From positions 124,001 to 188,000 of the forward strand of contig NC_007955.1 in NCBI RefSeq assembly GCF_000013725.1: a DNA stretch of 64,000 bases. The letters run 5' to 3'. Positions 11,938 through 29,963 of this stretch are shown one piece after another. The position numbers and the translations under genes were made by a program. The notes under the pieces were generated by a model. That model ran no database searches and had not been told where the DNA came from. It saw nothing but the letters and a program-made list of their open reading frames with translations. Origin of the DNA: Methanococcoides burtonii DSM 6242. GTDB lineage: Archaea; Halobacteriota; Methanosarcinia; Methanosarcinales; Methanosarcinaceae. Positions within the stretch are counted from its first letter, which is position 1. Each line of letters opens with the position of its first letter.

Positions 11938-13086
11938 TCATGTCCTGAACCGGCGGTCAATGTACTCTATGAGTTTGCGCCCTGATATCTCGATGGTCGC
12001 CGCCGCTGAGCGTATGTAGAATTCCTCCTTATCGCCCTCTTTTAAGAATACGGGGATGTCACTGGGACTGCAGTCCACCCTCAGTACAAACCGACCTTGG
12101 ACGTTCACCAGCTCCGAGTCGATATAGGGCAGGAACTCATTGCCTATACTGCGTCCTATCAGGTTTGTGAAATGCAGATTGAACTTATCGTTGTTCTGGA
12201 AGTTATCCTCCTCGATACCCAGGATGGTCTTGTCATCACAGACACCCACCAGCAGATGACCACCATTGGAATTCAGATATGCTACGATCGTCTTTGTGAC
12301 CGCGTGTTCGATCCGTTTATCGGGTTTTGACGTATGCAGATTCATCCTGAGGGTGGACTTGAACTCCAGTTTTTGTCCCTCTCCCTTATTGATTAATTTC
12401 AGCAGTTTCTCAGAGGGATCTGTTTGTTCATGGTATCGTTTGAAGAACCGAGGATTCATTTCAATGAACCTTATGACCGCCTGATCCAGCAGGTGCTCCC
12501 TGTGGTGCCGTATATACACGAATCCAGCTACCGCCACCGATAATGTTACTGCGAGATTGATACCCAGGTAGATGATCAGATCGAGGGTCGTGGTCCTCAT
12601 GTCGTACCGCTGCACATTAAACTCGAACAGAAATTCCATTGTAAAAATGAAGATCTCCATGATCGTTGCTATGGTAAATGAAAGGCAGAACGAGAACGCG
12701 GCAACAATGGCAGGGGTCAGACCTGTGGTCGTCCGCCTCTCCCTGAACAGTAGATATGCCAGTGAAAACCCTATCGCACCTATCACGAACGCGGACAGGG
12801 CGTGTACAAAGAGATACCACCACCAGTACCTCTGGATCAGGGGACCCATTGTTTCGGGAAATATGGACAGGTAGATGAAGATCAGTATAAGTGTCTCGAA
12901 TAGTGAGGGGAAATCAAACTCCCATTCCTTTTCGATGATCGTTGGCAAAAACGTCAATGTCAGGGCGAACAGGGCCAGCACAAGGTTGAGCCAATCATTC
13001 CTGACCACTGCGATCACCCCTGCGGCGGCCAGCAGTGCTCTGAAGGTTATGGAGAAGTACAACCTGATCCTGTCTGCATTGTCCAT
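11938..13086 (-). CDS. Membrane protein with a C-terminal AlbA_2 (Schlafen-like) domain
   Basis: A 382-residue protein. Residues 1-190 hold five to six hydrophobic helices (ALLAAAGVIAVV, LVLALFALTLTF, TLILIFIYLSIF, FVIGAIGFSLAYLLF, LIIYLGINLAVTLSVAVAGF). Residues about 225-382 form an AlbA_2 domain: GEGQKLEFKSTLR, then YLNSNGGHLLVGVCDDKTI and EEFYIRSAAATIEISG. AlbA_2 domains bind nucleic acid or nucleotides and often occur in regulators and defence proteins; tethering one to the membrane is unusual. The gene is visibly more GC-rich than its neighbours, suggesting transfer. No partner gene is evident apart from the short frame at 13147-13317. Confidence 0.75.
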   Translation of the reverse strand: MDNADRIRLYFSITFRALLAAAGVIAVVRNDWLNLVLALFALTLTFLPTIIEKEWEFDFPSLFETLILIFIYLSIFPETMGPLIQRYWWWYLFVHALSAFVIGAIGFSLAYLLFRERRTTTGLTPAIVAAFSFCLSFTIATIMEIFIFTMEFLFEFNVQRYDMRTTTLDLIIYLGINLAVTLSVAVAGFVYIRHHREHLLDQAVIRFIEMNPRFFKRYHEQTDPSEKLLKLINKGEGQKLEFKSTLRMNLHTSKPDKRIEHAVTKTIVAYLNSNGGHLLVGVCDDKTILGIEEDNFQNNDKFNLHFTNLIGRSIGNEFLPYIDSELVNVQGRFVLRVDCSPSDIPVFLKEGDKEEFYIRSAAATIEISGRKLIEYIDRRFRT

Positions 13087-27119: not shown

Positions 27120-27292
27120 AATTCTCCGAAGATCCTGAAACGTCTGAGTCTTCCGGGGGAACAAAAGGATATCACATATCTCCTGTGTGATTCAATGGGA
27201 ATCGAAGTGACCTATGATCCCACAGAGGCCATCGGTCAGTTCATGGGACAGACAATTGAGCTTCTTGGAAAAAGCTGCATATACCGTTGTTA
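27120..27292 (+). pseudogene. Unrecognised 3' gene fragment
   Basis: An open stretch reads NSPKILKRLSLPGEQKDITY, LLCDSMGIEVTYDPTEAIGQ and ends LLGKSCIYRC stop. It has good codon quality but no start codon, so it looks like the end of a truncated gene. I cannot assign a family. Confidence 0.3.
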
Positions 27293-27490
27293 AAGTTGAA
27301 ATGGGCTGATGAAGGTCAGTCCTGTTCTTTTATTTTGCTTTTATTTTTGGTGTATGGCTTCTTTCATTCTTTTTATGCCCGGATTCACTTGATACTTTTA
27401 AGATTATGTCTCGGTTTGGCTAATGTGTTGGTGATTAAGTTTGTAGAAAATTTGATATAGTATCGATTATAACTAATCCAAGACCAAATT

Positions 27491-29074
27491 ATGATTAAAC
27501 AACTACATCTTGAAAATTTCAAAGGGTTGAAAGATTCGAAAAAAATTGATTTGAAGCCTCTTACTTTGCTTTGTGGCTCTAACAGTAGTGGAAAGTCATC
27601 TATAATTCAAAGCTTATTAATGCTCAAACAGACATTTGAAAGTCAATCTCGATATCGTAAAGTAGTTTTAAATGGTCAATTTACCCATCTTGGATCTTTT
27701 ATTAATATAATTCACAACAAGACTTTATCAAATGAGGTAATGCTAAAATTCCAAATTTCTCCTAGTACTCCGGCTATAAATGGAGGGAATAAAAAGTATT
27801 CATTCATTGATTATCATTTAAATGATTTTAATTTTGGTTCTAGTAGCGAAAATAATTCTAATAAATTGTTGGATATAGAACTTGGGTTGAAAGTTTTAAA
27901 AGATTCGAATGCTATGGAACCATATGTGAACACTTTTAATGTTTTGGCAAAATCAAATGACTTACAAGAAAATCATTCTGATGGTACTTCCATTAGTCTA
28001 TCTCGTATTTCTACTGATAAATACAACCTAAAATGGAAAAACATTAAATCGGGTTACTTTCTAAATTTCGTTGAAGATCCAGTTCCAATTCCTAAGAGCA
28101 TAATATCATATGTATGTCCAAAGTGTGGTATAAGCCATCGATCTAATTCTGGAATTGGCAAAAAGCACTATAGTTACCATTTTTATAAACACAATGGTGC
28201 CGAAGTGAAAGCTTCTTTTAGTAACTTAATGCCTATTATTAAGCAACAAGATTATTCTGTTAAGGCTCTTTATCCTATTGTTCATTCAATTAATTCATTG
28301 AAAGAACTTATACATACTGAGTTTTCTAATTTATATTACATTGGACCTTTAAGGGAAGAGCCAGCTCGACGGTATATTCACGAAGCTGAATTTATTGATA
28401 TCGGAATTCGTGGTGAGAATGCGCCTTTCATCCTATCAATTGAAGGAAACAAGAAGATATCTCCCTATCGCTTTTATAATGAACCTTTAAACGAGTGGCA
28501 GTCCATTGATGACGATAATCTGGAAGATGCAGTCAATCGTTGGTTGCGCTATATGGGTATTAGTGAATATGAGCTTGAAGCTAAAGATGATATTATTCGC
28601 TTAAATATGAGTTCAATTCAAGATAAAGATGTAAAAGTTACTTTAGCAGATGTTGGTTTTGGAGTAAGTCAAATATTGCCCATTTTAGTAGAAGGTTTAC
28701 GAATTGGTGATGGTCAAACTTTAATTTTAGAACAGCCTGAAATACATTTGCATCCGAAATTACAAATGCAACTTGCTGATTTCTTTGTTTCAATGGTTCT
28801 ATCTGGCAAAAGAGTTTTGATAGAAACACATAGTGATCATATTGTAAATAGAATTTCACGTAGAATTCTTGAAAGTGATAATAATGAGTTACTTTCAAAA
28901 ACGAATTTGCTTTTTTTTGAAAACATAGATGGTTATCCTGCGTTGAATCCGGTTGAAATAGATTCTAACCGTGGTATTGTAAATTGGCCAAAAGGTTTCT
29001 TTGATCAATCTGCAGATGAAAAACGAATCATTATTCAAAAAGGAATTGAAAAAAGAAAACAAGGGCGGATGTGA
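27491..29074 (+). CDS. DUF3696-type AAA/ABC-like ATPase with a zinc-finger insertion
   Basis: A 527-residue ATPase of the OLD/RecF-like group. Walker A GSNSSGKSS is at 29-37 in the N-terminal lobe (LHLENFKGLKDSKKIDLKPL). An insertion near 205-235 carries C-x2-C plus several histidines (YVCPKCGISHRSN, KKHYSYHFYKH), possibly a zinc finger. The C-terminal lobe has the signature-like LADVGFGVSQILPI, Walker B LILEQPEIHLHP near 411 and the switch histidine in ETHSDHIVN. NWPKGFFDQ near the end resembles the DUF3696 tail. Such ATPases drive several antiphage systems. It ends four bases before its partner begins. Confidence 0.75.
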   Translation: MIKQLHLENFKGLKDSKKIDLKPLTLLCGSNSSGKSSIIQSLLMLKQTFESQSRYRKVVLNGQFTHLGSFINIIHNKTLSNEVMLKFQISPSTPAINGGNKKYSFIDYHLNDFNFGSSSENNSNKLLDIELGLKVLKDSNAMEPYVNTFNVLAKSNDLQENHSDGTSISLSRISTDKYNLKWKNIKSGYFLNFVEDPVPIPKSIISYVCPKCGISHRSNSGIGKKHYSYHFYKHNGAEVKASFSNLMPIIKQQDYSVKALYPIVHSINSLKELIHTEFSNLYYIGPLREEPARRYIHEAEFIDIGIRGENAPFILSIEGNKKISPYRFYNEPLNEWQSIDDDNLEDAVNRWLRYMGISEYELEAKDDIIRLNMSSIQDKDVKVTLADVGFGVSQILPILVEGLRIGDGQTLILEQPEIHLHPKLQMQLADFFVSMVLSGKRVLIETHSDHIVNRISRRILESDNNELLSKTNLLFFENIDGYPALNPVEIDSNRGIVNWPKGFFDQSADEKRIIIQKGIEKRKQGRM

Positions 29075-29078
29075 TATT

Positions 29079-29963
29079 TTGATTTCTGTTTTTCATCCAA
29101 ACCTTTTATTTTGTAATTTGTCTGATTGGGATGATGAAATATTTCAAGATTCTTTTATTTCTGAATTGCTTAGTCATCTGGATAATATCGATTTTCTTGG
29201 ATTTCGTTTTGGTTGGTCTAGTGAACTTTCATGTGCTTTTTGGGAAGAGGCACCTTGGAGGGGCGATAGTTATTATGAAAATCTTTTATTAGATGTCCTC
29301 TATCAGCAGATTGTGGAATTGGAATATTTTTTTGAATCCCCTCCTGATGGTGAATGTCAGGTAAAATCTGATATAAATCTACAATTAGCAGATACCGTTC
29401 ATGCATCTTGGTTAACTCTAATTCATCGTATTTTACATAGTCAATGCAATACATTAATTCCAGTTAAATTTGGTTCGAGTAATAACGAATCAATTACTTG
29501 TTCCTGTGATTGCTCTTCTAAGTGTTATTCTAATGAGTATTTGCTTGTCTCGAATCCTGATGACTGGTATACTAAGGTTGATTTTATGGATCTGTGTCCT
29601 TCTAGTGTTGATAACTGGTATTCTAAGATTAAGGTTGCAATATCGCTATGTCATAAACAGGAATTCTTCTCCAATGAATTTAAAATTTCAATCGATAATA
29701 TAAAGTTCAAAAATAAATTCATATCTGATTTTTTGGATCTAAATGATGCTATTTATAAAAGAACAATCATACGCAAATTGACAAAAGTATTAACTTTAAA
29801 CCATAGTGAAGCTGCTCTAGATGGTGGTCTACAAGAAGAGCTTATTAGGGGAGTTTATAGGCTTAGGATTTCTGGTGGGAGAAGAATGCATTATGTGGAA
29901 GAGTTGGGCATAAAGACTTTTATTAGTTTTAATTCAACTTCAGGACATGATCGTCTCCATTAA
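29079..29963 (+). CDS. Partner of the DUF3696-type ATPase, unknown function
   Basis: A protein of about 294 residues starting at TTG 29079, chosen because GTGAT sits five bases upstream; an in-frame ATG at 29016 would overlap the ATPase by 59 bases. The first 230 residues (ISVFHPNLLFCNLSDWDDEI) are acidic and unrecognised, with cysteines in CSCDCSSKC. The final 60 residues (LQEELIRGVYRLRISGGRRM then FISFNSTSGHDRLH) resemble the RelE/HigB toxin fold, where basic residues before a C-terminal strand act in RNA cleavage; this similarity is weak and visual. Tight coupling to the ATPase suggests an effector. Confidence 0.6.
   Translation: MISVFHPNLLFCNLSDWDDEIFQDSFISELLSHLDNIDFLGFRFGWSSELSCAFWEEAPWRGDSYYENLLLDVLYQQIVELEYFFESPPDGECQVKSDINLQLADTVHASWLTLIHRILHSQCNTLIPVKFGSSNNESITCSCDCSSKCYSNEYLLVSNPDDWYTKVDFMDLCPSSVDNWYSKIKVAISLCHKQEFFSNEFKISIDNIKFKNKFISDFLDLNDAIYKRTIIRKLTKVLTLNHSEAALDGGLQEELIRGVYRLRISGGRRMHYVEELGIKTFISFNSTSGHDRLH

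Follow-up and report, generated by a model that had tools for sequence, protein, structure and literature searches.

A two-gene Menshen/ptuXYZ-like pair of an ATPase and a YoeB-type effector in Methanococcoides burtonii

Introduction

ATPases of the OLD, PtuA, AriA and NsnB types act in defence systems as sensors and scaffolds. The ATPase of PARIS restrains a toxin until infection; this toxin, AriB, is a DUF4435/Toprim-type nuclease and is unlike a YoeB toxin. Cami1 (CARF-RelE) is activated by cyclic oligoadenylate via its CARF domain, and Menshen is said to originate from Millman 2022. According to the relevant part of PMC10952713, Menshen combines an ATPase with a DUF262 gene and one more component; the gene names NsnA, NsnB and NsnC that we use are those of PADLOC. 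The ptuXYZ system, whose defence role is predicted, comprises the DUF262 protein PtuX, a PtuA-like ATPase and PtuZ, which joins an inactive PIN-like N-terminal domain devoid of catalytic residues to a YoeB-type BECR end, as given in the relevant sections of PMC11980606 (Gerdes, mBio 2025). Those sections contain neither a two-gene archaeal form nor toxin swapping, and the word Menshen is absent from the paper.

Here we analyse an ATPase gene and its downstream partner, hereafter the effector, in Methanococcoides burtonii. The window, the whole 64,000-base stretch of DNA that was analysed, covers positions 124001-188000 of the complete 2,575,032-base genome; the features of the pair are collected in Table 1.

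Table 1. Features of the ATPase-effector pair (window positions)
Feature	Position	Strand	Basis or remark
ATPase gene	27491..29074	+	527 aa; DUF3696/AAA_15, OLD/PtuA/AriA-like, NsnB-like
Cys/His insertion in ATPase (CPKC...SHR...KKHYSYH)	28115..28183	+	homologue alignment
Effector gene	29079..29963	+	294 aa; homologues in 11 other loci
Effector N-terminal domain	29079..29675	+	resembles NsnC-like and Ntox17-type effector N-termini (profile comparisons)
YoeB/RelE-type (BECR fold) toxin domain	29676..29960	+	AlphaFold2 and Foldseek, invariant residues, YoeB profile match

Results

The pair encodes an NsnB-type ATPase and an effector without a family match

The first gene product matched AAA_15 (3.3e-32) and DUF3696 (2.7e-8) in Pfam, and in PADLOC NsnB (PDLC03878, 2.7e-71), HEC-03B (6.5e-55), PDC-M55A (3.6e-50) and AriA (4.5e-35). 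Walker A is intact (GSNSSGKSS, residues 29-37), the Walker B stretch reads LEQPEIHLHP (LILEQPEIHLHP spans residues 411-422), and the switch ETHSDH occupies residues 445-450. The motif positions and Pfam matches confirm the DUF3696-type ATPase named in the preliminary description of this DNA. That description had also pointed to an unusual cysteine/histidine insertion near residues 205-235, which is indeed present, running from CPKC (residues 209-212) through SHR and KKHYSYH to about residue 230, and is possibly a zinc ribbon. As a defining mark of the system, however, it was rejected, being found only in the Methanococcoides and Methanohalophilus ATPases and in none of the other aligned homologues.

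The most likely start of the effector is TTG 29079, 4 nt past the TGA of the ATPase gene, in a frame that is open back to 29001; with this start, the four-base spacing first reported is borne out. No family match was obtained in Pfam, PADLOC or NCBIfam, in agreement with the initial view of a protein of unknown family and with no sign of a housekeeping family. A search against phages found nothing, and comparison of the effector or its C-terminus with the sequences of solved structures yielded only noise.

The effector ends in a YoeB-type toxin domain

An AlphaFold2 model of the effector, built from eleven alignment rows, reached a pLDDT of 87 and a pTM of 0.83. When it was compared with the PDB by Foldseek, Mycobacterium tuberculosis RelJK, Helicobacter pylori HP0894, YoeB of Staphylococcus aureus and Escherichia coli, and YafQ ranked near the top. 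These toxin matches covered about 90 residues at a probability of 1.00 (among them PDB 3oei, 7v6w and 2a6r) and with target TM-scores of about 0.6-0.76, although their E-values were modest, about 1e-3, despite that probability. The C-terminus of the partner thus matches solved toxins of the RelE/YoeB family. The RelE/HigB-type fold originally suspected for the last 60 residues stands as a RelE-type fold, which is best refined to YoeB and extends over the last ~90 residues.

The residue-level comparison points the same way. YoeB has E46 as its general base and H83 as its general acid, and R59 and R65 also belong to its active site (PMC3814384). In an alignment of the effectors that included a YefM-linked YoeB, E55, R64, R70, Y73 and H91 of the toxin domain were invariant in all ten homologues; the R-x5-R-x2-Y spacing aligned with R59, R65 and Y68 of YoeB, and E55 with E46, whereas H91 was equated with H83 from its position near the C-terminus, behind a slightly longer loop, and not by superposition. 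The full-length effector family profile, run against 292 genomes of the phylum of the Nostoc relative, had a single other match, a 92-aa YoeB (E 1.5e-4) lying directly downstream of a YefM-type antitoxin; both names in this matched pair come from sequence inspection. Because the fold and the invariant residues match the YoeB active site, the predicted toxin domain very probably is an active ribonuclease.

The BECR fold also serves the ParE gyrase poisons and is indecisive when taken alone, as stated in the relevant passages of PMC11980606, so that the effector might act on DNA gyrase like ParE, or on tRNA rather than mRNA, or its toxin domain might be an inactive scaffold. We consider this improbable: the YoeB active-site residues are invariant, Foldseek placed YoeB, RelE and YafQ above ParE, and archaea have hardly any gyrase-poison ParE toxins according to the same passages (Gerdes, PMC11980606).

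By analogy with PtuZ, the N-terminal domain may be PIN-like. A separate and confident AlphaFold2 model of this domain had no convincing PIN structure among its Foldseek matches, and its profile reached the lone PIN partners of related ATPases at E 0.12. We also observed that a cysteine at about residue 93 and a C-x-C-H motif at residues 143-148 (window 29355-29522), a possible metal site, are kept in most effectors and are partly lost in the gammaproteobacterial members.

The two genes are conserved together across archaea and bacteria

We found the pair at 12 loci, spread over archaea and seven or more bacterial groups. The ATPase gene comes first throughout, and at these loci the effector frame directly follows or overlaps the end of the ATPase gene. 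Members include Methanohalophilus, Nostoc, Heliobacterium, Shewanella, a Pseudoalteromonas megaplasmid, assemblies of Saprospiraceae, Clostridiales, Chloroflexi and Riflebacteria, and one IMG/VR contig. A further cyanobacterium carries the pair with a broken effector frame, and in the Lokiarchaeota member the same effector has a diverged C-terminal end. Most of these loci were recovered via the ATPase, which biases the set towards adjacency; when the effector was the sole query (393 genomes, plasmids, and 292 + 296 genomes), every full-length effector recovered was next to the ATPase. The co-conservation check proposed at the outset gave a positive answer: homologues were always, and not rarely, neighbours. 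When the genes flanking eleven loci, to at most 8 kb on either side, were compared all against all, no further gene in common was detected. The ATPase is hence the only conserved neighbour of the effector, and a YefM/RelB antitoxin beside it is absent.

Several relatives lie close to defence genes. The Riflebacteria pair stands directly after HsdM-HsdS, with the type I restriction-modification system immediately upstream; the Lokiarchaeota pair follows a type IIG-like restriction-modification enzyme; and SAVED-HNH-like and PDC proteins are found near the pairs of Pseudoalteromonas and Methanohalophilus. No known defence gene was seen beside the pair in the M. burtonii genome. Elsewhere in the window, a membrane protein (11938-13086) has a C-terminal domain that looks AlbA_2/Schlafen-like by eye.

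The M. burtonii pair is patchily distributed and lies in an AT-rich island

All other Methanococcoides genomes that were searched lacked the pair, whose occurrence is rare and patchy; for this reason it may be a recent arrival in M. burtonii. In two sister genomes the genes to the right show 90% identity, and the syntenic place lacks the pair. To the left, only the 3' part of an oxidoreductase gene remains (27160-27373); one sister genome (L101) has this gene intact. The remnant marks the left side of an inserted or replaced segment. The GC content is about 0.33 in the pair versus 0.44-0.51 just to its right. The earlier picture of an IS-rich, AT-rich island was thus right.

This sporadic presence in a region rich in mobile elements, together with the YoeB-type toxin and the tight two-gene layout, would also suit a plain toxin-antitoxin addiction pair, in which the ATPase is only an antitoxin that stabilises the mobile island and does not sense phage. 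We regard this as unlikely, since the antitoxins of YoeB are small and YefM-like, whereas the partner here is a 527-aa ATPase whose family's named profiles are defence components, and since the conserved N-terminal domain of ~200 aa would be needless in a plain toxin.

The pair resembles Menshen and ptuXYZ and has no DUF262 gene

Like Menshen, the pair has an NsnB-type ATPase (2.7e-71), and relatives of this ATPase with other effectors match NsnC profiles. A full NsnA-NsnB-NsnC operon was found on an Acinetobacter piscicola plasmid (L107:1565-4785, annotated DUF262-DUF3696-hypothetical), near brxL of a BREX system, with matches of 8.6e-120, 7.6e-121 and 3.6e-48, respectively. Since this operon has the ptuXYZ layout, the names Menshen and ptuXYZ seem to denote one type of system. 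Like ptuXYZ, the M. burtonii pair places behind a PtuA-like ATPase a two-domain protein whose N-terminal part is not a toxin and whose C-terminal part is a YoeB-type BECR domain. It differs from ptuXYZ, as far as this is set out in the relevant sections of its description, in having no leading PtuX DUF262 gene.

Four differences separate the pair from Menshen. NsnA/DUF262 (PF03235) had no match anywhere in the M. burtonii genome; the effector has no NsnC profile match; the ATPase, at 527 aa, exceeds the canonical 371-aa NsnB of the Acinetobacter operon by ~150 residues; and the effector profile had no detectable similarity to the NsnC, or third protein, of that operon (E 0.09). The pair probably works like ptuYZ/NsnBC, yet on these grounds it is outside Menshen by definition. 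It is a two-gene Menshen/ptuXYZ-like variant and not a new kind of system, so that the pairing, at first described as unfamiliar, is not wholly so.

The missing DUF262 gene and the existence of the canonical operon could alternatively mean that the pair is an inactive Menshen/ptuXYZ operon, degraded or incomplete through the loss of this gene. This is very improbable. A DUF262 gene adjoining the relatives' loci was sought and was found beside no effector of the same type with readable flanks, both frames are intact, and the catalytic residues are kept although overall effector identity drops to 16-41%, which argues for selection on the two-gene form.

Other described systems are further away. 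The PADLOC candidates HEC-03/PDC-M55 have the same ATPase family and two genes with the partner directly downstream, but HEC-03A consists of a single PIN domain (~180 aa) and has no YoeB domain, and its PADLOC profile did not match the effector. PARIS resembles the pair in the ATPase superfamily and in the working model of an ATPase-restrained toxin; the AriB profile of PADLOC did not match the effector. Cami1, with weak profile and structure matches, likewise combines a regulatory domain with a RelE-type mRNase, but its CARF domain was not found in the M. burtonii effector.

Related ATPases are followed by different effector classes

The partners of related ATPases include lone PIN proteins (HEC-03A, 4.8e-42), NsnC-profile proteins, Ntox17-ended proteins (6e-6) and further types. 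The N-terminus of the M. burtonii effector resembles that of the Ntox17 effectors (HMM match to L012, 1.4e-6; profile, 7e-5) and, remotely, that of the NsnC-like class (E about 1e-5, 13% identity), whereas its C-terminus is unmatched with either. In another cyanobacterial effector class, the N-terminus is common with a Lokiarchaeota effector of different end (3.5e-11). On the ATPase tree the effector classes cluster strongly: 10 changes were counted, compared with a mean of 38.8 after shuffling. The agreement has exceptions, and effectors of the YoeB type do not form a single clade. Toxin ends that are exchanged while the ATPase stays conserved would produce such a pattern; the individual profile matches are remote. 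At one locus (L005), a YoeB effector accompanies an ATPase that falls within the NsnC-like class. By itself this case is no clear instance of swapping, since the N-terminus of this effector, compared alone, shows no detectable similarity to those of that class.

Three effectors (L006:5534-6415, L008:5530-6399 and L043:9488-10378) have a terminal motif of the type DVEHGAIE, and the first has a weak PF09000 match (0.14). In the first and third, this motif has the D-x2-H-x3-E spacing found in the active site of the rRNase colicin E3, and these three effectors probably represent an rRNA-cutting version of the same module. As a separate observation, four Bacteroidota loci (L059:6415-7998, L062:6415-7998, L071:6327-7991 and L073:6330-7991) have an extra gene of 528-555 aa that abuts the ATPase upstream; it occurs in two types, each common to two genomes, and is perhaps an additional component.

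Discussion

Adjacent homologues and the RelE/YoeB-family C-terminus support the two-gene, defence-like ATPase/effector module that was initially proposed. Our favoured reading, to which we assign a probability of about 0.65, is that the pair is a two-gene antiviral module of the abortive-infection type, made of an ATPase that senses and restrains and a YoeB-type ribonuclease effector. The OLD/PtuA/AriA-type ATPase would serve as sensor and, by analogy with PARIS, as restraint, and the effector would dock onto it through the N-terminal domain; such a docking role would explain why the N-terminus is kept while the toxin changes. Infection would alter the state of the ATPase and free or activate the effector, whose YoeB-type domain would then cut mRNA, probably on the ribosome, so that translation stops and the cell shuts down. 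Within this model we infer the antiviral role, the binding and restraint by the ATPase, the ribosome dependence and the trigger.

A broader reading, to which we would give even odds, is that NsnB/DUF3696 ATPases head cross-domain polymorphic immune modules in which a conserved ATPase and effector N-terminus are combined with a swappable C-terminal toxin (YoeB, Ntox17, colicin-E3-like or others) and an optional DUF262 component, the archaeal pair being the YoeB version.

One ATPase family joins three separately named sets, Menshen, ptuXYZ and HEC-03/PDC-M55, and the comparison points to a conserved unit that can do without the DUF262 component. The system type is extended to methanogenic and Asgard archaea, and a defence family without an established effector mechanism gains a clear candidate toxin with five conserved active-site residues. 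Taken together, these results suggest that cell-internal immunity makes use of toxin swapping, as secreted polymorphic toxins are known to do.
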